Below are positions 37,436 to 58,939 of a DNA stretch of 64,000 nt, piece by piece. The notes beneath the pieces were generated by a model that saw only the letters and a list, made by a program, of their open reading frames with translations, did no database searches and was not told the DNA's origin. Position 1 is the stretch's first letter. Each line of letters begins with the position of its first letter. The DNA lies in contig NZ_JAKCFI010000001.1 of the NCBI RefSeq assembly GCF_021412625.1, forward strand, positions 1,054,001-1,118,000. Reading direction: 5' to 3'. The stretch comes from Myxococcus stipitatus. GTDB lineage: Bacteria; Myxococcota; Myxococcia; Myxococcales; Myxococcaceae. The position numbers were made by a program, and so were the translations under genes.

Positions 37436-37465
37436 TCCGTGTCTCGTGACGGGAGGCTCCACGCC

Positions 37466-43578: not shown

Positions 43579-45044
43579 GACGCGCGCCCCACCCGCGCGG
43601 TCGCGGCCTCGCCGGCGTCGTCGAACGCGGGCCGCCGGAGCGTCACGCCCGCCTCGGCCTCGAACGCCGCGCCGACGCGGAAGAGGGTCCGCTCGTCGAA
43701 GGGTCTGCCGACGAGCTGCATGCCCAGGGGCAGTCCGTTCGAGAAGAAGCCCGCGGGGACCACGAGCGCGGGGTTACCGGTGACGTTGAAGGGCACCGTC
43801 TGCACGGCCACCGACAGGGAGGGCGGCGGCCAGTCGTGGGGGAAGCCGTCCAGGCGGGGCGCCGAGGCGAGCGCCGTCGTGGTGAGCAGCGCGTCGTAGC
43901 GCGAGAGCACGTCGCGGTTGAGTTGCACCGTCAGTTCCTGGCGGAGGCGAAAGGCTTGCGTCAGGTCCGCCGCGGTGAGGGCCGCCGCGGGGACGACGCG
44001 CTGGTAGGTGTAGCGGCCGAAGTCGCGGGGCCGCTCCTTCAGGTCCTGCTCGTGGATGGCATAGGCCTCCACGGTCATGATGATGCGACCGCAGGCCTTG
44101 AACAGCTCGAAGTCCGGCAGCACGACCTCCTCGACGATGGCGCCCAGCTTCGCCAGCGTCCCGGCGGAGGCGTCCATCGCCGCGAGGACGTCGGGAGAGA
44201 CTCCGGGGACGTCGCTGAAGAGGCGCCGCGCATAGCCGAGCCGGAGCCCCTGGAGGTCGCGCCCCAGGTCCGCCATGTAGTCGCGGGTCTCCGCCGCGAC
44301 GCTGCTGGGGTCGCGCGCGTCGTGGCCCGCGATGACGCTCAGCGCGAGCGCGGCGTCCTCCACGCTCCACGTCAGCGGGCCGCAGTGGTCCAACGCGAAG
44401 GAGAGCGGGAACACGCCGCGCCGGGAGACGAGCCCATACGTGGGCTTCAGGCCCACGACGCCACAGTGCGAGGCGGGCGAGCGGATGGAGCCTCCCGTGT
44501 CACTGCCGAGCGCCAGGCGCAGGAAGCCCGCCGCCACCGCCGCGCCGCTCCCGGACGACGAGCCTCCCGTGAAATGCGCCGGGTTCCACGGATTGCGCGC
44601 GGGAGGGAAAGGCAGGTCGAACCCCGGGCCCCCCAGCGCGAACTCGTGCGTCGTCAGCTTGCCGAGCAGCACCGCGCCGCCCGCCTTCAGCCGCGCCTCC
44701 ACGTGGCAGTCCTCCGTGGGGGCGTGCTCCAGCCGCAGCCTCGAGTTGCACGTGGTGGGGATGCCCGCCACGTCGAAGATGTCCTTCAGCGCGTACGGAA
44801 TTCCGTGCAAGGGGCCCCGGTCGACACCGGAGCGCAGCTCCTGGTCGGCCCGCGCGGCGTCCTCCAGCGCGCGCTCGGCCGTCACGCGGATGAAGGCCCG
44901 CAGCGCGCCGTCATGCGCTGCGATGCGCGAGAGCGCGTGCTCGGTGAGCGCCCTCGAGGTGAGTTCGCCGGCACGCAGCGCGGCGCCGGCCTCCGCGATG
45001 GAGAGGGTATGCGGGGGCCGCGGGTTCACTGGCTCACCGCTCAC
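43575..45044 (-). CDS. AtzE-like amidase signature hydrolase, copy 1
   Basis: 489 aa. The Ser-cisSer-Lys triad is complete: Lys87 in PYALKDIFD, Ser162 in TGGSSSGSGAAV and the nucleophile Ser186 in GSDTGGSIRSPA, with the normal 24-residue spacing. It belongs to the GatA/AtzE group. The gene overlaps by 11 bp a tiny AtzG-like gene just upstream, as in other AtzG/AtzE pairs, so the two probably form a complex. Predicted to hydrolyse or transfer an amide. Homologue at 53607. Confidence 0.85.
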   Translation of the reverse strand: MSGEPVNPRPPHTLSIAEAGAALRAGELTSRALTEHALSRIAAHDGALRAFIRVTAERALEDAARADQELRSGVDRGPLHGIPYALKDIFDVAGIPTTCNSRLRLEHAPTEDCHVEARLKAGGAVLLGKLTTHEFALGGPGFDLPFPPARNPWNPAHFTGGSSSGSGAAVAAGFLRLALGSDTGGSIRSPASHCGVVGLKPTYGLVSRRGVFPLSFALDHCGPLTWSVEDAALALSVIAGHDARDPSSVAAETRDYMADLGRDLQGLRLGYARRLFSDVPGVSPDVLAAMDASAGTLAKLGAIVEEVVLPDFELFKACGRIIMTVEAYAIHEQDLKERPRDFGRYTYQRVVPAAALTAADLTQAFRLRQELTVQLNRDVLSRYDALLTTTALASAPRLDGFPHDWPPPSLSVAVQTVPFNVTGNPALVVPAGFFSNGLPLGMQLVGRPFDERTLFRVGAAFEAEAGVTLRRPAFDDAGEAATARVGRAS

Positions 45045-45243
45045 GCAACAGGGCCCGCAGGTTGAACACGTTCGAGGGTTCGCTCTCGGCGGCCCGGGGC
45101 TGGCGCAGCAGCGTGGCCATGCGCGTCAGCTCCAGGTACACCGCCAGCGCGCCCGGACGCAGGTCCGCGGGCACGTCATGGCCGCACCTCGCCATCACCG
45201 CGTCGAACTCCTGCTCGTGCGCCTTCCGGGACTCGGTGCCCAC
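45034..45243 (-). CDS. AtzG-like (DUF4089) small amidase partner, copy 1
   Basis: 69 aa from a GTG at 45243, chosen for GGGAGG five bases upstream and for matching the length of copy 2. The pattern DVPADLRPGALAVYLELTRM, then ESEPSNVFNLRALLR follows AtzG/HpxX proteins, which are GatC-like subunits of amidases. The stop overlaps the amidase start by 11 bp. The family call rests on pattern and on context, both of which agree. Confidence 0.68.
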   Translation of the reverse strand: MGTESRKAHEQEFDAVMARCGHDVPADLRPGALAVYLELTRMATLLRQPRAAESEPSNVFNLRALLRER

Positions 45244-45282
45244 CACGGCCTCCCTCGGCGTCGAGGTGACGCCCGACCCCTC

Positions 45283-45311
45283 ATGATAGGGGACGGGATA
45301 AGCCTGATCAA
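45283..45311 (-). promoter_or_regulatory. Candidate promoter of the leftward operon
   Basis: On the minus strand: -35 TTGATC (45306-45311), a 17-bp spacer and -10 TATCAT (45283-45288, five of six consensus bases). Transcription would start near 45276, giving a leader of about 33 nt to the AtzG-like gene. Confidence 0.5.
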
Positions 45312-45376
45312 CGCGATGGACCAGAACAGCACGAGGGCCTTGTGTCATTCACAGACGTCCCACGGGCCGGGTTGCC

Positions 45377-45406
45377 TTGACCCATGCGTCGAGCGACTCG
45401 TATCCT
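45377..45406 (+). promoter_or_regulatory. Candidate promoter of TPR gene copy 1
   Basis: -35 TTGACC (45377-45382), an 18-bp spacer and -10 TATCCT (45401-45406). The start would be near 45413, giving a leader of about 48 nt. Same layout (TTGACC-N18-TATNNT) as the promoter of the small peptide gene at 53510. Confidence 0.48.
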
Positions 45407-45460
45407 GAGTGTTGGCTGTCTTCACTTTCAGGGAATCGCGGGAAAGAGAGGCAGGGGGGC

Positions 45461-46228
45461 ATGGCTAACAGGACGAAGTCGGCGGTCGCGGCGCGTTGGA
45501 CGCAGAGCACGGCCCGGCAGATCGAGAAGCGGCTGCTCGAGGCGCTTCAATCCCAGTCGGCGAACGTGGAGGACAACACGGCGGAGGGCGCGCTCGCGCG
45601 GGGGCGGTTGTTCTCCGTGGCGCTCTACCACGAGAAGGCCATCGAGAGCTTCCGGGAGGCCTTGAGCCTGGACCCCTCTCAATACGAGGCGGCCGCGCGG
45701 CTGGTGTTGGTGCTGCTGCGCACGCGGCGCCACGAGGAGGCGTTGGAGGTCGCCACGAAGCTGGCGGCGGAGGCCCCCGACTACGAGCTGCCGGAGATGA
45801 CGTCGGACGAGCGCATCAGCGTCTTCACCCTCCTGGGCAACGCGCTCGTCCAGAACCAGCGCACGGATGACGCCATCCAGGCGTACCAGACGGCGCGCAA
45901 GCTCAGCAAGCGAGACACCACGGCCGCGGCCCGGTTGGCGCAGCTCTACCTCTCCTCCGGCGAGCCCAAGCGCGCGTTGGAACAGTCGAGCGCCTTCTCA
46001 CGCAACCCCCGCTTCCAGGACCTGGCGTCCGTGCTCACCCTGGGCAAGACGAACGAGGCGCTGTTGCCCACGTACCGTCGCGCCTCCATCGCGGACATCG
46101 TCGGGCTGACCGACCATGGGCGCCCGCTCACGGTGCCGGACGGCTCGCGGCTCGCGTCGGTGGTGGAGGGTTCGACGGCGTGGTGCGCGGAGCCACGCGA
46201 CGTGCTCGCGGACGACGCCTCCGAGTGA
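45461..46228 (+). CDS. TPR protein with conserved C-terminal tail, copy 1
   Basis: 255 aa from the ATG at 45461 behind GGGGGG. About four TPR units (IESFREALSLDPSQYEAAAR, FTLLGNALVQNQRTDDAIQAY) are preceded by an N-terminal GALARGR segment. The C-terminal 60 residues do not fit TPR: DHGRPLTVPDGSRLASVVEG, then AWCAEPRDVLADDASE. The same tail pattern ends the protein at 58184. It is a likely scaffold for the locus. It is followed by a hairpin, so perhaps a single-gene transcript. Confidence 0.7.
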   Translation: MANRTKSAVAARWTQSTARQIEKRLLEALQSQSANVEDNTAEGALARGRLFSVALYHEKAIESFREALSLDPSQYEAAARLVLVLLRTRRHEEALEVATKLAAEAPDYELPEMTSDERISVFTLLGNALVQNQRTDDAIQAYQTARKLSKRDTTAAARLAQLYLSSGEPKRALEQSSAFSRNPRFQDLASVLTLGKTNEALLPTYRRASIADIVGLTDHGRPLTVPDGSRLASVVEGSTAWCAEPRDVLADDASE

Positions 46229-47638
<1,410 letters not shown>

Positions 47639-47656: not shown

Positions 47657-48733
47657 ATGCCTCTCGCCGTCAGCCTCTACGGGGCCGTCGCCAGTCTCGA
47701 GGACGGCCCCGGGTTGTTGAACCTGGCCTGGACCCTGGATGAGCGCCGGTGGCTCTCGGTGGACCTGGACGCGCTCGTCACGCGCGAGCTGGAGGCCGAG
47801 GCGCGGGAGGGGTTGACCTTCGTCCACCGCTACTTCGTGAAGGACCCCTACGGCGATGACGTCCTGGGGCCCTCGGTGGCGGCGTACTTCGGCAGGGAAG
47901 GGTGGTCGACCCGGGTGACGTGCGGCGCGGGCGTCGTCTCGCTGCTGCACGCGCTGGCGCTCCTGTCGGACGGGCGGCCCGTCCTCTTCACGGGGGACTG
48001 CTACCCGGACCTGCCCCACTGGCTCTCGAGGCGGGCCGAGCTCCGCGCGGCCGTGGACGCCCGGGACGTGGACCCCGAGGGGGCCTCGCTCGTCTTCCTC
48101 GAGCGGCCGAGCCTCGTGGGAGACGGCTTCCGCGACCTGGGCGCCATCGCGGAGCTCTGTGTCCGCGCGGCCCGGCACGGCGCGGTGGTGGCCATCGACG
48201 AGTCCAACGCGAACTACTACCCGCCGGCCTTCAGCGCGGCCCACCTGCTGCCGGACGCGGACAACCTCGTGGTCATCCGTGGCTTCTCCAAGGCGTACCA
48301 GCTGGGGGGGCTGCGGCTGGCGTACTGCCTGGCGGCGCGTGAGCTGACCGAGCGGCTGCGCGCGGTGGTGCCGCCGCTGCTGGCCTCGTCCCTGTCCCTG
48401 CGCCTGGGGCGGGAGGTGCTCGGGCTGGGGGACGTGGCGGCGTCCCTGCGCGAGCGCATCACGGCGAACAAGGCCGAGACGCGGCGCCTGCTGGAGGCGG
48501 CGGGCCTCCCCGACGTGCTCCCCTCGAGCCAGTTCCTCCCCTACCTGTTCCTCCGTCACGACGCGGCGGACAGTCTGGCCTTCCTGGAACGTCAGAGGAT
48601 TCGCGGTAAGCTCCATCCCTACTGGTCGGCGGCCACGCGGGACGTGGCGTGCATGTTCCGGTTGAGCGCGCCGTTGAGCGCGGAACGGATGGACCTGCTG
48701 CGGGGGCGGTTGGAGGTGGCGCGGCGGGCCTGA
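47657..48733 (+). CDS. PLP-dependent aminotransferase class I/II, copy 2
   Basis: 358 aa. Close in sequence to copy 1 at 39255: LNLAWTLDERRWLSVD, VTCGAGVVSLLHALALL, AIDESNANYYPPAFSAAHLL and Lys212 in GFSKAYQLGGLRLAY. The shared odd N-terminus shows that both belong to one subfamily. It starts 18 bp after enolase and is followed 15 bp later by a flavin monooxygenase. A distinct amino donor or acceptor from copy 1 is likely but cannot be read from sequence. Confidence 0.82.
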   Translation: MPLAVSLYGAVASLEDGPGLLNLAWTLDERRWLSVDLDALVTRELEAEAREGLTFVHRYFVKDPYGDDVLGPSVAAYFGREGWSTRVTCGAGVVSLLHALALLSDGRPVLFTGDCYPDLPHWLSRRAELRAAVDARDVDPEGASLVFLERPSLVGDGFRDLGAIAELCVRAARHGAVVAIDESNANYYPPAFSAAHLLPDADNLVVIRGFSKAYQLGGLRLAYCLAARELTERLRAVVPPLLASSLSLRLGREVLGLGDVAASLRERITANKAETRRLLEAAGLPDVLPSSQFLPYLFLRHDAADSLAFLERQRIRGKLHPYWSAATRDVACMFRLSAPLSAERMDLLRGRLEVARRA

Positions 48734-48748: not shown

Positions 48749-50116
48749 ATGGGCCGCGCAGACGCGGGGATGAAGCTCGCGGCGTTCTTGTACCCGACGG
48801 GCTACCACGTCGCCGCCTGGCGCCACCCGGACGTCCCCGCGGACGCGGGCGTCAACTTCGCCCACTTCACGCAGCTGGCCCGGACGGCCGAGCGGGGCCT
48901 GTTCGACTTCCTCTTCCTGGCGGACAGCGTGGCCGTGCGAGGCACGGACCTGCCGGCGCTGAGCCGGACCGCCATCCGCTACGTCGCCCAGTTCGAGCCG
49001 TTGACGTTGCTGTCCGCGCTCGCCGCCGTCACCGAGCGCATCGGCCTGGTGGCGAGCGCGACGTCCACCTACAACGAGCCCTATCACCTGGCGCGCAAGT
49101 TCGCGTCGCTCGACTTCATCAGCGGCGGTCGCGCGGGCTGGAACCTCGTGACGTCGTCCAATGGCGACGAGGCGCACAACTTCGGGTTGGACGCGCACCC
49201 CGAGCATGGCGAGCGTTATGGACGGGCGCGTGAGTTCGCGCAGGTGGTGAAGGGGCTGTGGGACAGCTGGGAGGACGACGCCTTCCTCCGCGACAAGGAC
49301 ACGGGCCTCTACTTCGACCCGGACAAGCTCCATGTCCTCCACCACCGGGGCGAGGAGTTCTCTGTGCGGGGCCCGCTCAACGTCCCGCGCACGCCGCAGG
49401 GCCATCCGGTCCTCGTCCAGTCGGGCTCCTCCGACGTGGGGCGCGAGCTGGCGGCGGAGATCGGCGAGGTGGTGTTCACCGCGCAGCCGACGTTCGCCGG
49501 GGCGAAGGCCTTCTACGCGGACGTGAAGGCGCGCGCGGCGAGGAAGGGGCGCTCGCCCGACGCGTTGAAGGTGATGCCCGGCATCTTCCCCTTCGTGGGG
49601 CGGACGCAGCGGGAGGCCGAGGCGCGGTACGAGCAGCTCCAGGCGTTGATCGACCCCGTGGTGGGCCTGTCGCTGCTCAACGGACTGTTGCCCGGCGTCG
49701 ACCTCTCCGCGCATCCCCTGGACGGGCCATTGCCAGAGGTGCCGCAAGTCCAGGGGAGCTGGAGCCGGCAGAACCTCATCGTCGAGGAGGCCCGGCGCAG
49801 GAACCTCACCATCCGTCAGCTCTACCTGGACATCGCGGGCTCGCGAGGCCACTGGCAGCTGGTGGGCACGCCCGAGCGCATCGCCGACGAGCTGGAGGTC
49901 TGGTTCCGGGAAGGCGCGGCGGATGGCTTCAACGTGATGGCGCCCTATCTTCCCGGTGGGCTCGACACCTTCGTCGAGCTGGTGATTCCGGAGCTCCAGC
50001 GCCGGGGCTTGTTCCGCACCCGCTACGAGGGGCGCACGCTGCGCGAGCACCTGGGCCTGCGTCGCCCCGAGCACGTGTCGCGTCGCTCCCACGGGCGGAG
50101 CGCGGTGGCGGGGTAG
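48749..50116 (+). CDS. LLM-class flavin monooxygenase (NtaA/SnaA/DszA type)
   Basis: 455 aa behind GAGGGAGGCGGAG. It matches the FMNH2-dependent nitrilotriacetate monooxygenase subfamily: GLFDFLFLADSVAV, EPLTLLSALAAVTERIGLVA, SATSTYNEPYHLARKFASLD, GGRAGWNLVTSSN and HPVLVQSGSSDVGRELAAE. These enzymes oxidise amines, sulfur compounds or cyclic ketones and need a separate flavin reductase, not obvious here. It is co-directional with the aminotransferase and the M28 peptidase, 8-15 bp spacing. Confidence 0.88.
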   Translation: MGRADAGMKLAAFLYPTGYHVAAWRHPDVPADAGVNFAHFTQLARTAERGLFDFLFLADSVAVRGTDLPALSRTAIRYVAQFEPLTLLSALAAVTERIGLVASATSTYNEPYHLARKFASLDFISGGRAGWNLVTSSNGDEAHNFGLDAHPEHGERYGRAREFAQVVKGLWDSWEDDAFLRDKDTGLYFDPDKLHVLHHRGEEFSVRGPLNVPRTPQGHPVLVQSGSSDVGRELAAEIGEVVFTAQPTFAGAKAFYADVKARAARKGRSPDALKVMPGIFPFVGRTQREAEARYEQLQALIDPVVGLSLLNGLLPGVDLSAHPLDGPLPEVPQVQGSWSRQNLIVEEARRRNLTIRQLYLDIAGSRGHWQLVGTPERIADELEVWFREGAADGFNVMAPYLPGGLDTFVELVIPELQRRGLFRTRYEGRTLREHLGLRRPEHVSRRSHGRSAVAG

Positions 50117-50124
50117 ACGCGTCC

Positions 50125-51927
50125 ATGCCGAGCGAGCTCGTCTCCCGCCTGCTGCGCGCCGTCCCCATCGATGACGTGATGCGCTCCCTCGCGCGCATCG
50201 CGGAGCACGACCGCTATCAGGCCTCGCATGGCATCGACGACGCCGCGAGCGTGGTGGCGCAGAGCGCCCGGGACCTGGGGCTGGCGGACGTCACCGTCTC
50301 GCGCTTCCCCGCCGATGGCGCCGCGCGCTGGTGGTCCTTCCGCGCCCCCGTCTCGTGGACGCCCGTGGTGGCGAGGCTGGAGGTGTGGGCCGGAGGGCAC
50401 CGGGCGCTCCAGCTCGACCACGCGCTCCAGCCCTTCTCGGTCGCGACGTACTCCGCTGCCACCCCCGCGGGCGGCGTCGCCGCGCGGCTGGTGAAGGTCC
50501 AGGGCGCGCCACGGGACTTCGACGTGCGTGGGGCCGTCGCCGTGGTGGGGCGCGAGGAGCTGGCCCGGGGGGACCTCCCCGCGGAGCTGGCCCGGTTGGG
50601 GGCCCTGGGCTTCATCACCGACGCGCCCGCGCGGACCGGGGCCGCCGGCGAGGAGCACCCCGGGCGCATCGAGCTGGAGCCCCACTCGCCGCTGTTCGCC
50701 TTCAGCCTGACGCGGGCGCAGCTGGGGCGCGTGAGGCCCCTGCTCGACGCGGGCGCCGAGGCGCGGGTCCTCATCGAGGTGGATGCCTCCGCGTCGATGC
50801 CCGTCGTCTCGGGGGTGCTTCCCGGCGACGAGGCGGGCGGGGAGGTGTGGCTGACGGCGCACCTGTGTCATCCCCGGCCCGGGGCCAATGACAACGCCTC
50901 CGGCGTCGCGGCGCTGCTCGGGGTCGCCGCCGCGCTGAGGGCGGAGCGCGCCCGCTCGCCACGCAGGAGCATCCGCTTCTTCTGGGGCCCCGAGTTCCTG
51001 GGCGTGGCCGCGGTCCTCCACGAGCGGATGGCGTCGCGGGGGCGCGCGGGCCTGCCCTCGGCGGTCATCAACGTCGACATGGCGGGAGAGGACCAGGCGC
51101 TGTGCGGCAGTCCCTTCCTCATCGAACGGGGGCCGGACTTCCGGCCGTCGTTGCTCGTCCCCTTCGCCGAGCACGTCGTGGGCGAGGTGTTCGCGCGGAC
51201 GGCGGCGCACCCGGGCGTCTGGCGGGCCATCCCGTTCGCGGGCTTCTCGGACCACGCGCTCTTCGCGGACCCGAGCACCGCCTCGGCCGCGGTCCAGCTC
51301 TGCCACGCTCCGGACCGCTTCAACCACTCCGCCGCGGACACGCTCGACAAGGTCTCCGCGGTGGAGATGGCGCGGACGACGGTCGCCGCCTCCGCGCTCG
51401 CCTGGATGATGGCCTCGCCCGGGGCACTGGCCGTCCCCATGGTGGAGCGCATCGTCGGGGACTGGTGCGCGAGCGAGCTCGCGGCGGCGCATCGGGTCGC
51501 GAGCCGGTTCGAGGGCCTCCAAGCGGGGGAATGGAGCCGTCGCCTCCTGCGCCACGTGGAGCGCTCCAACGAGGCCATGCGCGCGCTCGTGCAGCCAGGG
51601 ACGGGCTCCGAGGCGCCTGCTGCCCCCGCGCGAGGTCGGGTCATCCGTCGTCGCTGGTCCGGCCCGTTCAACGCGCGCGCCATGGCCGCGGACCTCCCGG
51701 CGGACAGCCGCGCGGCGCTGACGCGCCTGATTGCCGCCGACAAGCAGAACCTCGCGTTGCTCCTCAACTTCGCCATCCGCGCGGATGGGAGCCGTGGACG
51801 CGAGGACCTGGTGGACGAGACGTCGCTGGCGCTCGGGCGCCCCATCGAGGAGGGCGTCGCGCGCGGGCTCGTGGACCTGCTGCTGGAGTCGGGGTGGGCG
51901 ACGGAGGACTCGCCGTCCGACGACTGA
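50125..51927 (+). CDS. M28-type metallopeptidase with PA-like insert (DUF4910-like)
   Basis: 600 aa from the ATG at 50125. Zinc ligands are in order: His in TAHLCHPRPGANDNASGVAA, cut as AHLCHP and GANDNASG, Glu in WGPEFLG, Asp in NVDMAGE and the last His in FNHSAADTLDKV. A PA-like domain (about 80-200) precedes the catalytic half, and 170 residues of helical tail follow. No signal peptide, so it acts in the cytoplasm. An aminopeptidase that trims a peptide product would suit the context. It ends the rightward operon from enolase. Confidence 0.8.
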   Translation: MPSELVSRLLRAVPIDDVMRSLARIAEHDRYQASHGIDDAASVVAQSARDLGLADVTVSRFPADGAARWWSFRAPVSWTPVVARLEVWAGGHRALQLDHALQPFSVATYSAATPAGGVAARLVKVQGAPRDFDVRGAVAVVGREELARGDLPAELARLGALGFITDAPARTGAAGEEHPGRIELEPHSPLFAFSLTRAQLGRVRPLLDAGAEARVLIEVDASASMPVVSGVLPGDEAGGEVWLTAHLCHPRPGANDNASGVAALLGVAAALRAERARSPRRSIRFFWGPEFLGVAAVLHERMASRGRAGLPSAVINVDMAGEDQALCGSPFLIERGPDFRPSLLVPFAEHVVGEVFARTAAHPGVWRAIPFAGFSDHALFADPSTASAAVQLCHAPDRFNHSAADTLDKVSAVEMARTTVAASALAWMMASPGALAVPMVERIVGDWCASELAAAHRVASRFEGLQAGEWSRRLLRHVERSNEAMRALVQPGTGSEAPAAPARGRVIRRRWSGPFNARAMAADLPADSRAALTRLIAADKQNLALLLNFAIRADGSRGREDLVDETSLALGRPIEEGVARGLVDLLLESGWATEDSPSDD

Positions 51928-51936
51928 GGAGACGCG

Positions 51937-53151
51937 TCAGCTCTTCCCCACCATGCGCTGGAAGCGGTGGCGCAGTGGGAAGGGCACGAAGCGCTCGACG
52001 TGGAAGCCGAGCTGCTCGTCGAGTGAGTACGTCACCGGGTCCGTCAGGCTCAGCTCGGACATGCCCCGGGCCATCTGCTCGAGGAACCCCGGGTACTGGG
52101 ATTGGAGGGTGTAGACGACGCTGTAATAGAGGTTCCGCCCGAGCGAGAAGCACGGGTAGCGCGCGTCGTAGTTCTCCAGCGAGTACTTGGGGAAGCACCC
52201 GTCGATGATGCGCTTGGGGCACAGCCACAGCGGCATCACCAACGTCATGTCGCCGATGACGCGCGCGGGGAAGGGCGCGGGCTTGAGGCCGGTGGAGACG
52301 CGGAACATGGCCTCCGTGACGACGTCCTCCAGGTTCAGGCCCGTGCAGACGAAGCGCGTCCCCAGCTCGCGGGCCTTCTTGAAGAGCGCCAGCCGCACCA
52401 GCAGCGTGCCGAGGAACTCGAAGTCGTCTCCCTCGAACTCCTTCTGGAAGCGGTCGATGAGCGAGGCGGAATCCCGGGGGATGCCGAGCAGCTCCTTGAC
52501 GTCCAGCTCCTCCATCACCGTCAGCTCGAGGCCGTAGGTCGCGCACAGCTCCCGCGCGCGCGGCACGCCCGCGTCCCAGTCCGGGATGCCCTTGATGATG
52601 AGGGGATGGACCGTGAGCCCATGGTCCTTCAACTGCGTCAGCGCGTAGAGCAGGGCGTTGCTGTCGCCGCCGCCGCTGACGCCGACGACCAGGTGGGAGT
52701 CCGGAGGCAGGTGCTCGCGCACCGTCTCCGCCACCCGCGCCGCGATGACGGAGCGGCACTCGTCGGGGCTGAGCTTCTTGAGGAAGGACTCCGCCGTCGA
52801 GCTGGCGTTGTCCAGGCGCTGGTAGAAGTACTCGGTCGCCTGTCGCTCCGGCTCCGCGCTGGCCACGGTCATGGCCTGGGCGAGCGAGAACAGGAAGGGG
52901 TTCACGTTGCGGTTGAAGTAGAGCAGCAGCTCCGCCGCGTCCTTCAGGTCGCTGGCCGTCTGGTCGAGGCACGGCCGGATGGTCGGCGCGCCACCGGACC
53001 TGGGCACGACATAGATGGTCAACGCGGACCAGGGGACCTGGTGGCGATTGAGCAGGTCGATGAGCCGCTCATCACCATTCCAGCTCAGTGACTGACGCCC
53101 GTGGGACGTCACGAGCGACACGGCAGGGGAGGATCGTGGACCGGTGCTCAT
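51937..53151 (-). CDS. PP-loop (alpha-ANH) ATP pyrophosphatase with beta-grasp-like N-terminus
   Basis: 404 aa. The PP-loop GVSGGGDSNALLYAL at about residue 157 with SGGxDS is characteristic of the TtcA/TilS/ThiI superfamily, which adenylates a carbonyl before sulfur, nitrogen or amine attack. The N-terminal 50 residues (SWNGDERLIDLLNRHQVPWS) look like a MoaD/ThiS beta-grasp fold, but this is uncertain. Three Cys follow later (LCPKRIIDGCFPKY, RYPCFSLGRN). It lies 90 bp after the small peptide gene on the same strand, so it is the best candidate for its first modifying enzyme. Confidence 0.75.
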   Translation of the reverse strand: MSTGPRSSPAVSLVTSHGRQSLSWNGDERLIDLLNRHQVPWSALTIYVVPRSGGAPTIRPCLDQTASDLKDAAELLLYFNRNVNPFLFSLAQAMTVASAEPERQATEYFYQRLDNASSTAESFLKKLSPDECRSVIAARVAETVREHLPPDSHLVVGVSGGGDSNALLYALTQLKDHGLTVHPLIIKGIPDWDAGVPRARELCATYGLELTVMEELDVKELLGIPRDSASLIDRFQKEFEGDDFEFLGTLLVRLALFKKARELGTRFVCTGLNLEDVVTEAMFRVSTGLKPAPFPARVIGDMTLVMPLWLCPKRIIDGCFPKYSLENYDARYPCFSLGRNLYYSVVYTLQSQYPGFLEQMARGMSELSLTDPVTYSLDEQLGFHVERFVPFPLRHRFQRMVGKS

Positions 53152-53211
53152 CTGCCTGTGCTTGCTCTCACACGCCTCACGGGCGCAGCGGGACTTCGGA
53201 AGAGACAGGAT

Positions 53212-53230
53212 GCCGCCCTCGCGCGGCGGC
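53212..53230 (-). terminator. Small intercistronic hairpin after the peptide gene
   Basis: On the minus strand GCCGCC-GCGCGAG-GGCGGC forms a 6-bp GC stem 12 nt after the peptide stop. No T-run follows. It may act as a partial terminator that yields more peptide than enzyme message, a common design for precursor peptides. Confidence 0.35.
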
Positions 53231-53241
53231 CTCCTGGAGGA

Positions 53242-53457
53242 CTACTGGGCGCCCGTGTCGCAGCTGGCGCCGCAGATGGTCTCCAGCCCGTGCTTGGAGG
53301 CCGGGATGGCGCGGCGCTGCGTGCGCATCGCCTCCAGGTCCGCCACCGCGATGAAGGCAGTCGCGGTCCGGCGCTCGCTCGCGGGCACCAGCTCGACGGA
53401 CACGTTCTTCAGATTGAAGTTGTTCTGGACCTCGACACTCTCTTTCTGCTGGATCAT
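53242..53457 (-). CDS. Candidate RiPP precursor peptide, 71 aa
   Basis: ATG at 53457 behind AAGGGG. The N-terminal 55 residues are a polar, Asn/Val/Glu-rich leader (begins MIQQKESVEVQNNFNLKNV; later RRTATAFIAVADLEAM). The last 16 residues are HGLETICGASCDTGAQ with two Cys, Ser, two Thr and four Gly, which looks like a core peptide. There is no signal peptide. The codons of the first 20 residues are AT-richer than neighbouring genes. It lies in an operon with the PP-loop enzyme, has its own promoter candidate and stands among peptidase and oxidase genes. No known family was recognised, so its role as a precursor is inference. Confidence 0.6.
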   Translation of the reverse strand: MIQQKESVEVQNNFNLKNVSVELVPASERRTATAFIAVADLEAMRTQRRAIPASKHGLETICGASCDTGAQ

Positions 53458-53509
53458 CTCAGCCCCTTCTCTCCGTCAAACGTCGGGTGGAAGCCGCGAC
53501 AACCCTGGA

Positions 53510-53539
53510 ACCATAGCGGGCGCCCCGTCCGATGGTCAA
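53510..53539 (-). promoter_or_regulatory. Candidate promoter of the peptide gene
   Basis: On the minus strand: -35 TTGACC (53534-53539), an 18-bp spacer and -10 TATGGT (53510-53515). Predicted start near 53503, leader of about 46 nt. It lies just past the end of the amidase gene, in a 149-bp gap. Confidence 0.48.
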
Positions 53540-53606
53540 CGTGCAAAACCAGCACTCCGGTACCAGCCTGTAATTGCTCTTCGCGCGCGATCCGCGCACG
53601 TGCGCG

Positions 53607-55019
53607 TCAGCGTGAGGGGGGCGCGGCGAGGAGAGGGCGCCTGTCGCGCACGCCGAGCGCGGCCTCCAGCGCGGCGCCCGCGCGCAGCACGGTGGTCTCG
53701 TCGAAGACGCGGCCGACGAGCTGGAGCCCCAGGGGGAGGCCCGTCGAGGAGAAACCCGAGGGCATCGTGAGGGCGGGGTTGCCCGTCACGTTGTAGGGGA
53801 TTGTCTGCATCGGCATCTTCAGTGGCCAGTCGGGAGGGAACTCGTCGAGGCGCGGCGCGGGGCCCACGCCGGTCGCGGTGAGCAGGAGGTCGTGGTGTTT
53901 CATGACCCCCTGGTTGAGCGTCACCGTGAGCTCACGTCGGAGTCGGAAGGCCTGCGTCAGGTCCGCGGCGGAGAGCGTCGCTCCGAGGATGAGGCGTTGA
54001 TACGTGTATCGCGCGAAGTCGTGCGGGCGCTCGCGGAGGTCTCGTTCGTGAATCGCATGGCCCTCGGCGATCATGATGACCCGGCCGCACGCGCTGAAGA
54101 GGCGGAAGTCGGGCAGCCGCACCTCCTCGACGCTGGCGCCCAGCCGGGTCAGCGTCCGGGCCGCGGCGTCGAGCGCGGTGATGACCTCCGGTGAGGTGCC
54201 CTCGGCCTCGGCGAAGTGGTGCCGGGGGTAGGCGACGCGCAGGCCGTGGACGCCCTCTTTCAGCCGCGCCGTGTAGTCGGGCACGGGCTCGTCGGCGCTG
54301 CCGGGGTCGAGCGGGTCATGCCCCGCGATGACGCCCAGCGCGAGCGCCGCGTCCTCCACGGACCAGGTCAGGGGCCCGCAGTGGTCCAGCGCGAAGGAGA
54401 GGGGGAAGGTGCCTCGTCGCGAGACGCGGCCATAGGTGGGCTTGAACCCCACGGCGCCGCAGAAGCAGGCGGGGCCGCGGATGGAGCCGCTGGTGTCCGA
54501 GCCCAGGGTGACGCGCAGGAGCCCGGCGGCGACGGCGGCGGCGCTGCCCGAGGACGAGCCGCCGGTGAAGTGCTCCAGGTTCCACGGGTTGCGCGCGGGC
54601 GGGAAGGGGAGGTCGAAGCTGGGGCCCCCGAGCGCGAACTCGTGCGTGGCGAGCTTGCCCAGGAGCACCGCGCCCCCCGCCCTGAGCTTCGCCTCGACGA
54701 AGGCGTCCTGCGTGGGGACGTGGTCGACCCGCAGCTTCGAGTGACACGTCGTCCGGATGCCGGCGGTGTCGAAGATGTCCTTCAGCGCGTACGGGATGCC
54801 GTGCAGGGGCCCCCGGTCGACCCCCGCGCGCAGCTCCAGGTCGGCGCGGTGCGCGTCCTCCAGCGCGCGCTCCCTCGTGACGAGGACGAAGGCGTGCACC
54901 GGCTCGTCGATGGACGCGATGCGCGCCAGCGCGTGCTCGACGAGAGCCGTGGCGCTGAGCTGTCCGGAGCGCAGGCGCGAGCCCGCCTCCGCGATGGAGA
55001 GTTCGTGAAGTGGCTTCAT
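53607..55019 (-). CDS. AtzE-like amidase signature hydrolase, copy 2
   Basis: 470 aa from the ATG at 55019. The triad is Lys80 in PYALKDIFDTAG, Ser155 in TGGSSSGSAAAV and Ser179 in GSDTSGSIRGPA, again 24 residues apart. It is similar to copy 1 over its length (for example TWSVEDAALALGVIAGHDPL), so the two arose by duplication. An AtzG-like gene ends 10 bp upstream. Substrate unknown; an amide made or used by the locus is likely. Confidence 0.85.
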   Translation of the reverse strand: MKPLHELSIAEAGSRLRSGQLSATALVEHALARIASIDEPVHAFVLVTRERALEDAHRADLELRAGVDRGPLHGIPYALKDIFDTAGIRTTCHSKLRVDHVPTQDAFVEAKLRAGGAVLLGKLATHEFALGGPSFDLPFPPARNPWNLEHFTGGSSSGSAAAVAAGLLRVTLGSDTSGSIRGPACFCGAVGFKPTYGRVSRRGTFPLSFALDHCGPLTWSVEDAALALGVIAGHDPLDPGSADEPVPDYTARLKEGVHGLRVAYPRHHFAEAEGTSPEVITALDAAARTLTRLGASVEEVRLPDFRLFSACGRVIMIAEGHAIHERDLRERPHDFARYTYQRLILGATLSAADLTQAFRLRRELTVTLNQGVMKHHDLLLTATGVGPAPRLDEFPPDWPLKMPMQTIPYNVTGNPALTMPSGFSSTGLPLGLQLVGRVFDETTVLRAGAALEAALGVRDRRPLLAAPPSR

Positions 55020-55029
55020 CCCCGCCCCG

Positions 55030-55248
55030 TCACCGTCCGCGCAGGAGCGCGTCCAGGTGGAACACGTTCGAGGGCTCGCTCTCAGCCTGCCGGGGCTGCC
55101 GCAGGACGGCCGTCATCCGCTTCAGGTCCTCGTAGCCCGCGAGGACGCCGGCCCGATACGCCTCCGGGACGGTGATGCCTTGTCGCCGCATCAACAGGTC
55201 GAGCTCGCGCTCGAGCGGGGAAGCTGCCTCCGGCCCTGCCTTGTCCAT
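55030..55248 (-). CDS. AtzG-like (DUF4089) small amidase partner, copy 2
   Basis: 72 aa from the ATG at 55248 behind GGAGAGG. The core TVPEAYRAGVLAGYEDLKRM and the tail ESEPSNVFHLDALLRGR correspond almost residue for residue to copy 1 at 45034. It precedes amidase copy 2, mirroring the first pair. The conservation of both partners in both pairs supports a required heteromeric amidase. Confidence 0.68.
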   Translation of the reverse strand: MDKAGPEAASPLERELDLLMRRQGITVPEAYRAGVLAGYEDLKRMTAVLRQPRQAESEPSNVFHLDALLRGR

Positions 55249-55340
55249 CCACCTCTCCAGTCGTGGAAACGAGCGTAACACGCAGGGCTTGAAGTCCACG
55301 GATTGCGGAGAGAGCCCGTGGCGGGTAGACCGGAGGCGTC

Positions 55341-56312
55341 ATGGACCGAAGCTCACGCGACATCGAGTGGAGCCACCTGTCGTCCCTGGAGGAGAAGCGC
55401 GCGGCCTACGCGCTCGAGTCGTACTTCCGGGAGAGCCTGTGGGACGCGCGGGTGGTGCTCGGCGAGCGGATGCTGCCCATCCTCCAGCGCATCACCCTGC
55501 TGGTGTTCAAGCCGGAGGCGCTCGTGGGGCGCCGGGTGGACGGCACGATGCGCTTCCTGGCGGACAACGGCTTCACGCCCATCCACTACCGCCCCTTCAC
55601 CTTCACGCGGCCCATCACCCGCGAGGTGTGGCGCTTCCAGTGGAACGCCTCGACGCTGGACAAGATCGACGTGTCGACGCTCGCCTTCTGCGCGCTGCCC
55701 ACGGTGATGGTGGTCCTGCGGGACGACTCGTCGCCGTTGGAGCTGCCGGGCTCGGTCCGTCTGAAGAAGCGCAAGGGGGCCGCCGCTCCGGAGGCGCGGG
55801 CGCCGGGCACGCTGCGCTCCGTCGTCTCCGCGCCGAACCGGATGATCACCTTCGTCCACACCACGGACGAGCCCGCGGACGTGCTGCGCGAGGTCGGCAT
55901 CTTCTTCGACCGGCCCACGCGGCGTGAGTTCTTCCAAGCCATCCTGGAGGACTTCCGAGGGGACGCCACGGCCGGGTGCCTGGGGGCCTTGAAGCGGCTG
56001 GAGGCGCGGGCGCCCACGTCGGACTTCGCGCCCGAGGGGGCGTGGCAGCGCATCCTGGCGCGGGCCCAGGGCCAGACGCGCGCGCGGCTGGAGGCGCAGC
56101 GGGCGCGGTTCGGCGAGACGGGGAAGGTCGACTGGGAGGACTTCCACGCGCTGTGCGCGGACGCGGGCTGCGACACCTGGGACATCGTCTCCATCGGCAC
56201 CGCCGCCATCGACTACGACGACGTGGGCCACGCGCAGCTCATCAACTTCGACCGGGGAGGGCTCGACGGTTGGTTGAACGGCAAGGCGCGGCTCGTGCCG
56301 GGCGAGAGCTGA
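55341..56312 (+). CDS. Nucleoside-diphosphate-kinase-like protein, copy 2
   Basis: 323 aa behind GGAGG. Homologous to the protein at 38274: Lys57 in LLVFKPEALVGRR, strand LPTVMVVLRDD, LRSVVSAPNRMITFVH with His173 at the NDK phospho-histidine position, then TTDEPADVLREVGIFF. The length is identical to copy 1, so the flanking extensions are conserved parts of the family. Likely a phosphotransfer enzyme with an unknown acceptor. It is convergent with the nucleotidyltransferase gene, 3 bp away. Confidence 0.65.
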   Translation: MDRSSRDIEWSHLSSLEEKRAAYALESYFRESLWDARVVLGERMLPILQRITLLVFKPEALVGRRVDGTMRFLADNGFTPIHYRPFTFTRPITREVWRFQWNASTLDKIDVSTLAFCALPTVMVVLRDDSSPLELPGSVRLKKRKGAAAPEARAPGTLRSVVSAPNRMITFVHTTDEPADVLREVGIFFDRPTRREFFQAILEDFRGDATAGCLGALKRLEARAPTSDFAPEGAWQRILARAQGQTRARLEAQRARFGETGKVDWEDFHALCADAGCDTWDIVSIGTAAIDYDDVGHAQLINFDRGGLDGWLNGKARLVPGES

Positions 56313-56315
56313 GCC

Positions 56316-57497
56316 TCAGGAGCGGGAGCCCGCGGCCTCGAGGAGCGCGCGGATGCCCTGCACGTCGATGGGAGGGCGCGCGTTCAGCTTGGAGTAGCGC
56401 ACCGTCCCCAGCAGGCTCTCCAGGTTGCGCGCGCCCGCGTCGGGGCCCCAGACGCGCTCGGCGTGCCGCAGCGCCTGCTCGTGCGATGTCTCGCCATCGA
56501 ACAGGCTCAGCACCGACCAGGCCTGCGCGGTGAGCTGGAGCGGCGGGGTGCCCGCGTTCAGCCGCGTCAGGTCGTAGCGCTCGTCGCGCAAGCGCACCGT
56601 CACGTCGAAGTCGAGGGCGGGCAGGGGCTCGCCCCCCTCGGCGCGCTCCTCGATGACGGGGACGGAGGGCAGCTGGGGCGCGAGCAGTCGCTGCTCGGCC
56701 CAGGTGAAGACCGCGCGCGCGAAGGCCACGATGCGGTGGGTGAACCGGGTGACGTCGCTGGCGGTGGGCCGCGGGGGCGCCTGATGGAGGCCCAGATAGC
56801 GCTCTTGCGCGGACAGCCCCGAGGGACGACCGGGCAGCAGCCGCTCCCAGTCCGGTGGCAGGGCCTCCAGCAGCCGGGCCCGCCACTTGCGCGTCGGGTT
56901 GGTGAAGCCGTGGCCGGCGACGAGGCCGTCCACCGCGTGGCCGAGCAGCTCCTGCGCGACGAAGAGCATGCTGACCCAGTCGCTGACTCCATTGAGGCCG
57001 GCCAGGTCGATCTGCAGCGTGTTGGCTTGATAGCGCGCCCAGTCCAGCTTGTGCCGCGCGAGGTGGGCCTGGGGGACGCGGGCCTGATAGCGCTCCAGCT
57101 CTCCGGCGCCGTGGAGCGCCCTGCCGGTGCGCAGCCGGTGCAGCAGCTTGCGATCATCCTCCGTCAGCCCGGTGGCGGCGCGCGGCTGGCGCGGCTGGCG
57201 CTCCCACCGCTCGAAGGCCGTCAGCAGCCGCTCCAGCGCCTCGCGGTCGAGCACGCGCACGTCACAGACGATGGGCCCCACGGCGAAGGCCACGTCGTTG
57301 AGCGAGGTGAAGGCGATGTCCGTGCGGGAGGTGACGAGATACAGGTCGATGTCCGACGTCTCGTTGCCGAGCCCCTCGACGAGCGAGCCACACACGAACA
57401 ACACGTCCGCGTCCGTGAGGCACAGGGCCTCGCGGGCGCGGATGGTGATGGCGTCGAGGGTGAGCTTGCGGCGGGCCAGGAACTCGGTGAGGTCCAC
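56316..57497 (-). CDS. Nucleotidyltransferase fused to a PqqD/RRE-like domain
   Basis: 393 aa from a GTG. Residues 30-85 are an MNT/kanamycin-type nucleotidyltransferase: GSLVEGLGNETSDIDLYL with Gly37-Ser38, Asp49 and Asp51, and a third acid at Asp79 in VCDVRVLD. A helical middle follows. Residues 295-368 look like a PqqD winged-helix RRE: two strands (LDFDVTVRLRDERYDL), then LQLTAQAWSVLSLFDGETS and two helices. RREs bind leader peptides of ribosomal natural products. Together this suggests nucleotidylation or recruitment of a peptide. Third gene of the leftward operon from 58939. Confidence 0.68.
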   Translation of the reverse strand: MDLTEFLARRKLTLDAITIRAREALCLTDADVLFVCGSLVEGLGNETSDIDLYLVTSRTDIAFTSLNDVAFAVGPIVCDVRVLDREALERLLTAFERWERQPRQPRAATGLTEDDRKLLHRLRTGRALHGAGELERYQARVPQAHLARHKLDWARYQANTLQIDLAGLNGVSDWVSMLFVAQELLGHAVDGLVAGHGFTNPTRKWRARLLEALPPDWERLLPGRPSGLSAQERYLGLHQAPPRPTASDVTRFTHRIVAFARAVFTWAEQRLLAPQLPSVPVIEERAEGGEPLPALDFDVTVRLRDERYDLTRLNAGTPPLQLTAQAWSVLSLFDGETSHEQALRHAERVWGPDAGARNLESLLGTVRYSKLNARPPIDVQGIRALLEAAGSRS

Positions 57498-57515: not shown

Positions 57516-58187
57516 TCAGATGGCCGCGGCGAGCCCCTGCGTGCCCACGAGCGCGATGGCGCGCGGGGCGATGACATCCTGGAGCATGGCCTTGCGCACC
57601 TCGGCCCGGGAGCGGGCGGTGAGGTGGCCGTACTGCTCCATGATGACGGGCTCCTCGGGCAGGTCGTTCGCGGGGAGGATGGCCAGGGCGCGACCGAAGG
57701 CCGTCTGCGCGAGCGGCAGCAGCGAGGGGTGTCGGGTGAGCATCCACTCGGTGAAGCGCCAGGAGAGGTCGGCGTGCCGGCCCTCCTCCTCGACGATGCG
57801 CGAGAGCACCTTGCGGATGCCCTCGTCCGTCGTGCGCTCGAGCGCGACCTCCGCGCACTTCGCGGAGATGGTCTCGTTGACACAGCCCTCGATGATGGAG
57901 GCCTCGAGGATGGCCGCGGGCTCGTCGGAGGCGTCGAGGACGCTCTCCAGGGACAGCTCGCCCGGGCCCGCCGGCACGCCCGTGAAGCGGGAGGCGATGC
58001 CGAAGCAGTAGCGCGCGTGATGCACCTCCTCCTCCATCGCCTTGATGGCGGCGAGGAGCAGCTCGGGAGGGGCGGCCAGCTTCATCAGGTGGAGCACGAA
58101 CCGGGCGAACGCCGCCACGGAGGCGTGCTCACCCAGACCCTGCTCCAACCACCTCTTGCCAATCAGCGCGCGCTCTTCGGGAGTCAC
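57516..58187 (-). CDS. Ferritin-like di-iron protein
   Basis: 223 aa from a GTG that overlaps the TPR stop (GTGA). The di-iron ligands are in helices: Glu20 in GLGEHASVAAFARF, AMEEEVHHARYCF with ExxH, Glu in LEASIIEGCVNETI and EEEGRHADLSWRF. Similar ferritin-like proteins are common in myxobacteria and often uncharacterised. It could be an oxygenase or N-oxygenase of the locus. Its translational coupling to the TPR protein and 18-bp spacing to the nucleotidyltransferase argue for a shared task. Confidence 0.78.
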   Translation of the reverse strand: MTPEERALIGKRWLEQGLGEHASVAAFARFVLHLMKLAAPPELLLAAIKAMEEEVHHARYCFGIASRFTGVPAGPGELSLESVLDASDEPAAILEASIIEGCVNETISAKCAEVALERTTDEGIRKVLSRIVEEEGRHADLSWRFTEWMLTRHPSLLPLAQTAFGRALAILPANDLPEEPVIMEQYGHLTARSRAEVRKAMLQDVIAPRAIALVGTQGLAAAI

Positions 58188-58939
58188 GGGCGCGCGTCGC
58201 TCACGAGGACGTCCGAAACGTCGGCGCACCAGGAGGAGTCCCCCTGGACGACCGGCGCCAGGCGGGCGCCTTCCTCGACCATGGACAGCGGGCGCCCGTG
58301 GACGTCCAGCTCGATGGTGGAGAGGTCGATGTACGGCATCTGGGCCTGGCCGTTGCGCACCAGCTGCAGGTGCGCGGAGAACTCGGCGAAGCGCGGGTTG
58401 TTGGCGAAGGTGTCCGCCAGCTTGAGCGCCTCATCACCCCTGCCGGTGGCGATGTACACCTGCGCCAGCCGCGCCGCGGCCGTGGTCTCCGTCACGCTGA
58501 CCTGCAGCGCGGTGAGATAGGCCTGGATGGACTCGTTGACGAGGCCGTTGAGCAAGAGCGCGTTGCCCAGCAGCGTATAGGCGCTGATGCGCTCGTCCGA
58601 CGTCATCTCCTGCAGCACGAAGCTCGGCTTCTGCTCGGCCAGCTGCTTGGCGGACTCGAGCGCCGCTTCCTTCTGCCCCGTGCGAATCTGCAGGACGGTC
58701 AGGCGCGCCCGCGCCTCGGCCAGGGAAGGGTCCAGCTTCAGGGCTTGCTGATAGCTGGTGATGGACTCCTGGTTGTACGCGGCCAGCGCCAACGTGCGGC
58801 CACGCGCCAGCGCGCCCTTGCCGCTGGTGATGTCACCGAGCTGCGGCGCATCGGACTGGAGGGCTTGAAGCAGATGGGCGGAGATCTTCTGGGAGACTTC
58901 CACCAACCAGGGCGCTGCGGAGGCATTCGACGAACCCAT
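58184..58939 (-). CDS. TPR protein with conserved C-terminal tail, copy 2
   Basis: 251 aa. Homologous to the protein at 45461 from end to end: GALARGRTLALAAYNQES, ITSYQQALKLDPSLAEARAR, LQEMTSDERISAYTLLGNAL and the tail HGRPLSMVEEGARLAPVVQG, then SWCADVSDVLVSDARP. The tail, with one Cys in the same place in both, is outside the TPR repeats. It leads a three-gene operon with the ferritin-like protein and the nucleotidyltransferase. Confidence 0.7.
   Translation of the reverse strand: MGSSNASAAPWLVEVSQKISAHLLQALQSDAPQLGDITSGKGALARGRTLALAAYNQESITSYQQALKLDPSLAEARARLTVLQIRTGQKEAALESAKQLAEQKPSFVLQEMTSDERISAYTLLGNALLLNGLVNESIQAYLTALQVSVTETTAAARLAQVYIATGRGDEALKLADTFANNPRFAEFSAHLQLVRNGQAQMPYIDLSTIELDVHGRPLSMVEEGARLAPVVQGDSSWCADVSDVLVSDARP

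Follow-up and report, generated by a model that had tools for sequence, protein, structure and literature searches.

A 71-residue candidate precursor or carrier peptide encoded next to a tRNA-thiolase-like PP-loop ATPase in a conserved gene cluster of Myxococcus stipitatus

A short gene of Myxococcus stipitatus encodes a 71-residue peptide for which a role as precursor or carrier peptide is well supported by sequence comparison, and which is very probably the starting material of a previously undescribed natural product family. The gene lies on the minus strand of a 64,000-nt stretch of DNA, here called the window, and is followed by the gene of a PP-loop ATPase that quite likely uses the peptide as its substrate. 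The whole route, in which the gene would provide a precursor or reusable carrier for a new peptide-derived natural product, appears somewhat probable to us. A literature search, which reached few of the subscription journals, found no published description of a peptide/PP-loop system of this kind; in the parts of the sources that were accessible, only related work on RiPPs, thioamides and resistance-guided mining turned up.

Results and discussion

The peptide gene and its expression signals

A first-pass annotation of this DNA had claimed a 71-aa product, and an open reading frame of 71 codons is indeed found exactly at 53242-53457, running from 53457 down to 53242 on the minus strand (full translation MIQQKESVEVQNNFNLKNVSVELVPASERRTATAFIAVADLEAMRTQRRAIPASKHGLETICGASCDTGAQ); the plus strand reads differently there. 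As had been described, the frame terminates in ...SKHGLETICGASCDTGAQ. The good ribosome-binding site of the annotation is AGAAGG, 7 nt ahead of the ATG, and its promoter candidate could be traced to TTGACC-18 nt-TATGGT, found once as compared to a mean of 0.0 (sd 0.1) in shuffled sequence. The copy of the peptide gene in Myxococcus dinghuensis is preceded by both hexamers at identical spacing. An enzyme gene had been expected next in the operon; it is that of the PP-loop ATPase (51937-53151, minus strand), 90 bp downstream. In the 10.1-Mb host genome a search with the peptide finds, besides its own gene, one match at chance level (E 1.5). The coordinates of all features are given in Table 1.

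A hairpin had also been claimed between the two genes. The stem is present, but its stability does not exceed chance in this genome, where 141 of 200 shuffles of the 93-nt spacer were at least as stable (z +0.57). Folding covered five clusters (window, M. dinghuensis, Pantoea, Saccharothrix and G432): the spacers of M. dinghuensis (z +0.82) and Pantoea (143/181 nt folded, z −0.45) are likewise unremarkable, and strong hairpins are seen in the two actinobacterial ones, Saccharothrix (z −2.68) and G432 (z −4.42). A hairpin between the frame and the next gene, strong in these two genomes, would suit a regulatory leader peptide (attenuator) ahead of the PP-loop gene, the hairpin then being the regulatory element. 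However, 53100-53700 holds no terminator-like site, G432 does not have its peptide gene upstream of that of the PP-loop enzyme, and the tail is constrained in its amino acids across three phyla, all of which makes attenuation extremely improbable.

Table 1 Features of the window around the peptide gene, and histidyl-tRNA synthetase genes at related loci
Feature	Coordinates	Strand	Remarks
71-aa candidate precursor/carrier peptide gene	53242-53457	-	N-terminal motif NFNLKN; near-invariant C-terminal 20 residues PASKHGLETICGASCDTGAQ
Ribosome-binding site AGAAGG	53465-53470	-	7 nt 5' of ATG
Sigma-70-like promoter candidate TTGACC-18-TATGGT	53510-53539	-	Hexamers and spacing identical in M. dinghuensis
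Hairpin 3' of peptide stop, 11-pair stem	53206-53236	-	Not above shuffled sequence in this genome
PP-loop ATPase, 404 aa, candidate defining enzyme	51937-53151	-	PP-loop domain nearest TtuA/NcsA/TilS by fold
Amidase (AtzE/GatA type)	53607-55019	-	7/7 clusters
Small AtzG/GatC-like amidase partner	55030-55299	-	Pfam AtzG-like E 0.14, below cut-off; position before amidase conserved
Second amidase	43575-45044	-	68% identical to first
Second small AtzG-like partner	45034-45348	-	56% identical to first over 68 aa
FAD/NAD(P)-binding protein (PF13454)	41419-43578	-	7/7 clusters
PF01663 phosphodiesterase/phosphatase	40380-41471	-	7/7 clusters
PLP enzyme	39255-40349	-	52% identical to 47657-48733
PLP enzyme	47657-48733	+	Nearest NCBIfam models CobD (Thr-phosphate decarboxylase) and HisC, both below cut-offs
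NDK-like protein	38274-39245	-	36% identical paralogue of 55341-56312; no own Pfam/NCBIfam match
NDK-like protein	55341-56312	+	PF00334, E 2.9e-5, below curated cut-off
M28/DUF4910 peptidase	50125-51927	+	7/7 clusters
NtaA/DmoA-family FMN monooxygenase	48749-50116	+	4/7 clusters
Enolase	46301-47638	+	Sole enolase found in this genome
PhyH-type Fe/2OG dioxygenase	37439-38299	+	5/7 clusters
Nucleotidyltransferase-fold protein	56316-57497	-	Weak Pfam matches below cut-off
Histidyl-tRNA synthetase genes at related loci	L021 6098-7402; L023 8263-9564; L117 8408-9445; L125 2690-4195		Three loci with peptide ending ALT[AG]HI

Homologues of the peptide and constraint on its tail

Evidence for a precursor or carrier comes from the homologues. 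When the species-genome collection was scanned with the peptide, 2 of 539 pattern matches proved to be relatives, one in M. dinghuensis (92%; the entries G114 and G196 have identical coordinates, were treated as one genome and are counted once) and one in Saccharothrix sp. NRRL B-16314 (54% over residues 12-71). A third, on the Pantoea agglomerans plasmid pMMD61212-C_B, was first met via its PP-loop gene and is matched in a plasmid tblastn search with 56.5% identity (E 3e-13). Three further homologues (G432, G910 and G943) were reached only via the PP-loop gene. In these three of the six homologues the adjacency of the two genes is not independent evidence, and the three genomes cannot test the association with enzymes. 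Homologues without modifying enzymes would speak against a precursor; all three that were found with the peptide sit in enzyme clusters, and the loci of M. dinghuensis, Saccharothrix and Pantoea each carry PP-loop ATPase, amidase, M28, PLP and FAD genes. A profile of the peptides, run over 11338 open frames, placed its members at E <= 1.6e-36 and the next frame at E 1.3; this shows separation only, because the members themselves built the profile.

Beside matching enzymes it is the tail that is kept and not the leader. The seven peptides of the window type (type I) have the tail consensus PASK[HY]G[LI]E[TA]I[CT]G[AG]SC[DE]TGAQ, and 14 of 20 columns are invariant in the tail as compared to 10 of 51 in the leader (Fisher p 1.5e-4, with columns taken as independent and kinship uncorrected). 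The second Cys of the tail (Cys66) is invariant in all seven; the first is replaced by Thr in three. When the window is compared with Pantoea, saturation of synonymous sites is seen in tail and leader alike (pS 1.01 and 0.98, respectively), and pN is 0.08 in the tail and 0.50 in the leader. Leader and core-like regions are thus under the unequal constraint that is expected of a RiPP precursor. The arrangement of a fixed tail behind a variable leader is unlike that of the classic RiPPs, in which the leader is conserved and the core variable; it is like that of carrier peptides or of precursors of a single fixed product. The first-pass annotation had called the layout of the genes the usual one for a precursor peptide, a reading to which the tail constraint and the shared enzyme company lend support.

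A conserved full-length fold would be a further argument against cleavage of the peptide. AlphaFold2 predicted no stable fold for six type I peptides (mean pLDDT 63, pTM 0.40); pLDDT is about 38-50 over the last 11 residues. This bears on another explanation, namely that the peptide is no substrate but serves the PP-loop enzyme as a small structural subunit or as an activator, in the way that AtzG/GatC serves an amidase. Its size and operon position would fit, and the cluster already holds such a small protein before the amidase. Yet the last 11 residues are among the least ordered of a peptide without predicted stable fold, related PP-loop enzymes are accompanied by different peptide families, and the leader varies while the tail is fixed at saturated synonymous sites; a subunit is therefore very unlikely.

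A phage or viral origin was also considered and rejected: neither the PP-loop protein nor the peptide had a match in the phage collection, and a scan of viral_contigs with the peptide alignment gave 44 pattern matches and 0 relatives.

Gene content of the type I clusters

Seven type I clusters from three phyla were compared by a tblastn tally (window, M. dinghuensis, Saccharothrix, G432, G910, G943 and Pantoea). Eight genes occur in all of them, as expected from the constant company of modification enzymes in RiPP clusters: those of the peptide, the PP-loop ATPase, a PF13454 FAD/NAD protein, a PF01663 phosphodiesterase, a CobD/HisC-like PLP enzyme, an M28/DUF4910 peptidase, an AtzE-type amidase and the small AtzG/GatC-like protein before it. 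Six clusters, all but that of Pantoea, have NDK-like proteins and enolase; PhyH is present in five, the NtaA/DmoA-type monooxygenase in four. A ClpX-like protein is also found in four, which are those of the four actinobacterial genomes; these AAA proteins lie at L020 7224-8654, L114 12121-13899, L115 12884-14167 and L030 13509-14774, and the PP-loop locus on a Xenorhabdus plasmid likewise has an AAA_2 protein (L008 17429-18322). No model of a recognised RiPP class-defining enzyme or of an RRE matched when 20 window proteins within 36502-58939 were scanned with Pfam and 15 window proteins with NCBIfam.

The PP-loop gene is rare. It was found in 2 of 195 genomes of the phylum to which the window belongs (E <= 1e-15) and, in three further draws that overlap (common members G195 and G674), in 7 of 297 (E <= 1e-10), 2 of 396 and 13 of 394 genomes (both E <= 1e-20). 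Among the matches of the draws, Saccharothrix (G195), G432, G910 and G943 are type I and the remainder are distant types.

Two TPR proteins of the window, at 58184-58939 (minus strand) and 45377-46228 (plus strand), could not be matched in any of the other five type I clusters. They are about 45% identical and end in a short tail that follows a conserved WCA[DE] motif (..SSWCADVSDVLVSDARP and ..TAWCAEPRDVLADDASE, respectively); the M. dinghuensis copy of the former retains WCADVSDVL. Both may be further precursor-like or partner proteins. The frame 57516-58229 (minus strand; 92% in M. dinghuensis) overlaps the end of the former TPR gene and has a weak rubrerythrin match below cut-off. The PP-loop locus of Geobacillus has a DUF455 gene at a distance of about 5.5 kb. 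The Pantoea Natural Product clusters were weakly rejected as the identity of the Pantoea locus: the cluster gene terms are absent from the main text of PMC11350110 and PMC7744662, as far as this was available.

A wider family of PP-loop loci with different peptides

Altogether 26 PP-loop loci were collected, 25 of which have a short peptide; at L021 a peptide was looked for near the PP-loop gene and none was found. In 17 loci the peptide gene precedes the PP-loop gene by less than 200 bp, and in eight it is located elsewhere in the vicinity (0.99 to 5.4 kb). It is about 1 kb away at L022, it lies 5.4 kb away on the opposite strand in G432, and at least one gene separates the two in six actinobacterial type IV loci. 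Because the wider peptide types were sought beside PP-loop genes, adjacency is not independent evidence here either.

Besides type I (n=7), the peptides fall into type III (n=7), ending in [LI][CSA]..ALT[AG][QH][VIM], type IV (n=7), with FRT and C followed by TD, type V (n=3), with GLESV.CCNS..A.G, and a singleton from Xenorhabdus that is assigned by its position alone. In five of the seven type IV loci, genes of PP-loop, PLP enzyme, M28, phosphodiesterase and NDK-like proteins occur together; the exceptions are L024, which is cut by a contig end (8069 bases), and L010, with the PP-loop gene only. With the type IV profile, two peptides that did not belong to its training set were recovered, those of L024 and L025 (E about 1e-18); all other matches of the peptide profiles were training members.

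When the 25 peptides were aligned ungapped from the C terminus, no position had one residue in all of them, and Cys is absent from three of the seven type III peptides. Within each type the C-termini are conserved. As no position is shared while the ends are fixed by type, any chemistry that the whole family has in common is more plausibly sited at the carboxyl end.

A PP-loop ATPase without the iron-sulfur ligands of the tRNA thiolases

Against Pfam, the PP-loop protein of the window gave ATP_bind_3 alone, as a weak match with E up to 1. Among solved structures, NcsA (E 1.2e-14) and TtuA are closest by profile. A comparison of folds puts TtuA, NcsA and TilS closest (Foldseek best E 4.9e-10), with VIA-align Z scores of 21.4 to 18.7 within residues 98-404 of a model (pLDDT 78.5) that was built from 9 sequences and is unreliable at residues 85-104 and 110-114; the structure alignment (A4) was made without four plasmid-derived PP-loop rows. 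The SGGxDS motif is intact, S, G, G, D and S being invariant in the 13 rows of alignment A3, which holds a minor part of the type IV and none of the type V sequences. In the same 13 rows there is no Cys at the ligand positions of the NcsA iron-sulfur motif CxxCG, and PCSFCG of NcsA aligns with the ddveflG stretch of the PP-loop profile. In the first 80 residues of the model the order of strands and helices resembles a beta-grasp fold, and SAMP2 gave matches below cut-off in the N-terminal segments of two distant members (E 0.012 and 0.029); none of the other four N-terminal segments examined matched a beta-grasp model. The N-terminal domain is possibly a beta-grasp, weakly assigned from the strand order of the model.

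With the CxxC ligands gone, amine transfer is favoured over [4Fe-4S]-dependent thiolation. The enzyme could nevertheless modify an internal residue, Cys66 or the adjacent backbone amide (as thioamide or amidine), the released tail then being the product of a side-chain or backbone RiPP pathway. The invariance of Cys66 in the type I peptides and a fold nearest to the tRNA thiolases TtuA and NcsA would agree with this. A 20-residue tail that is so fixed would, however, be unusual for the core of a peptide antibiotic, the CxxC ligands of iron-sulfur thiolases are absent, and so is Cys from some type III peptides, which renders the alternative unlikely. A precedent would be closthioamide, the thioamides of which are made by an iron-sulfur enzyme of the PP-loop type (adenine nucleotide alpha hydrolase) according to the accessible text of PMC6772006. 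Activation of the C-terminal carboxylate instead of a side chain or backbone amide is what we tentatively assume, as a leading candidate that still falls short of probable.

Proposed route and closest known systems

According to the route that we propose for a precursor or carrier peptide, the variable N-terminal part would be the leader, and the near-invariant C-terminal 20 residues would be the part that the pathway enzymes recognise and process. The PP-loop ATPase would adenylate the peptide, most likely at its C-terminal carboxylate, and then join an amine; ligation at the C terminus would require an amine donor. The attached or terminal group would be elaborated by the FAD protein, the PLP enzymes, the NDK-like proteins, the phosphodiesterase and the monooxygenase/dioxygenase, and trimming and release of the product may fall to the M28 peptidase together with the amidase and its small partner. 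The family names of the CobD/HisC-like PLP enzymes, the NDK-like proteins and the phosphodiesterase suggest phosphorylated intermediates. The tail might be fixed because one defined small product is made.

The nearest logic appears to be that of the pearlins. Judging from the accessible part of PMC9303977, their pathways start from a short ribosomal peptide with its own gene, on the C terminus of which enzymes act before a protease releases a small fixed product (3-thiaglutamate, 3-thiahomoleucine, ammosamides); the loading enzyme, PEARL, uses aminoacyl-tRNA and phosphorylation of a carboxylate. In the clusters described here a PP-loop ATPase stands in place of the PEARL ligase, and there was no LanB/PEARL-type Pfam match among the 20 window proteins (36502-58939).

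The lasso peptides also combine a PP-loop ATPase with a ribosomal peptide, the carboxylate of which is adenylated by the McjC-type enzyme. McjC is of the asparagine-synthetase type, whereas the PP-loop protein of the window is nearest to TtuA, NcsA and TilS, and neither a PqqD/RRE protein nor a transglutaminase-like protease is among the Pfam matches of the 20 window proteins. A variable front, a fixed C-terminal end and one small product are known from the precursors of mycofactocin (MftA) and PQQ (PqqA). Their pathways use radical SAM enzymes and an RRE protein, neither of which is among these Pfam matches, and the present clusters are rare, as seen from the 2 of 195 genomes in the phylum of the window. 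In microcin C, the short gene of the heptapeptide MccA is followed by that of the adenylating enzyme MccB. The order of peptide gene and PP-loop gene is similar, and some distant relatives adjoin a histidyl-tRNA synthetase gene; the enzyme here is of the PP-loop instead of the ThiF type, and no tRNA synthetase is among the Pfam matches of the 20 window proteins. TtuA, NcsA and TilS themselves share the PP-loop fold, as the best matches of solved structure, and the SGGxDS motif. Different from these are the position of the gene beside a peptide gene in a cluster of biosynthetic type, the N-terminal domain outside the matched region and, with respect to TtuA and NcsA, the missing CxxC ligands.

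If the reading as a precursor or carrier holds, a PP-loop enzyme of the tRNA-thiolase type would be added to the few enzymes by which classes of ribosomal peptide product are defined, and genome mining would gain a ready set of 25 loci with peptides (four types and one singleton).

The enolase of the cluster

The window enolase is the single enolase found in its genome. A survey of the genus (n=27 genomes, L031-L057) gave one enolase match each, 11 of the window type (84-100%) and 16 of another type (64-65%), so that one genus has two deeply different enolases. The other type shares one 4.3-kb locus with a SurE homologue in all 16 genomes. A tree of 32 enolases, drawn with a midpoint root, places the cluster copies from Saccharothrix and G432 with the window-type copies of Myxococcus (100/99), apart from the housekeeping enolases of the actinobacteria and from the other type of Myxococcus.

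Saccharothrix, G432, G910 and G943 have a cluster enolase with 71-75% identity to that of the window and a separate one of housekeeping type (62-64%). The extra copy in the cluster that would be expected for self-resistance is thus seen in all four actinobacterial type I genomes. The neighbouring enolase gene also hints at a target in central metabolism, a guess that can be tested ahead of product identification. The motifs examined are kept in the cluster enolases, a change from T to V in the lid loop is confined to the Myxococcus type, and no active-site or lid-loop change common to all six cluster enolases was found; a resistance signature in the lid loop was rejected on these grounds. Enolases of this kind also occur away from the clusters, on contig C5 of G432, on contig C21 of G905 and, as window-type enolase without a PP-loop match, in nine Myxococcus genomes. 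The 37-kb Pantoea stretch has a PEP-utilizers_C protein and no enolase match. We regard a self-resistance copy as doubtful. The kept motifs, the lack of a common lid-loop change, the Pantoea cluster and the copies outside clusters agree with an enolase that is a source of PEP for the pathway or merely a passenger; an argument against this is that each of the four actinobacterial type I genomes has a second enolase, of housekeeping type, which could supply PEP. Because such enolases occur outside clusters, we give PEP supply or a passenger an even chance.

Histidyl-tRNA synthetase genes at type III loci

A histidyl-tRNA synthetase gene adjoins the PP-loop gene in four type III loci (L021, L023, L117 and L125). 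It was recognised by Pfam at L125, and by blastp grouping and tblastn at the other three. Further matches to this synthetase in the respective genomes are a second close copy in G398, full-length matches of 30-31% in G1081 and G908, and a partial match of 34% only in G465.

One may go further and speculate on a multi-phylum class that would be defined by a tRNA-thiolase-like PP-loop ATPase which has lost its iron-sulfur site and activates the C terminus of a dedicated carrier peptide. The product of the present branch would attack enolase, and the producers would carry a resistant enolase that has replaced the ancestral one in some Myxococcus; a sister branch, with peptides ending in ALT[AG]HI, would attack histidyl-tRNA synthetase in the same way. 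We consider this extended picture, taken with all its parts, improbable.

In G908 the PP-loop gene (L125 1435-2828) is split into two frames and was counted as a locus; this copy may be decaying or misassembled. By eye only, a P450-like gene was read at L009 and L118, and a dioxygenase-like gene at L009 and L022.
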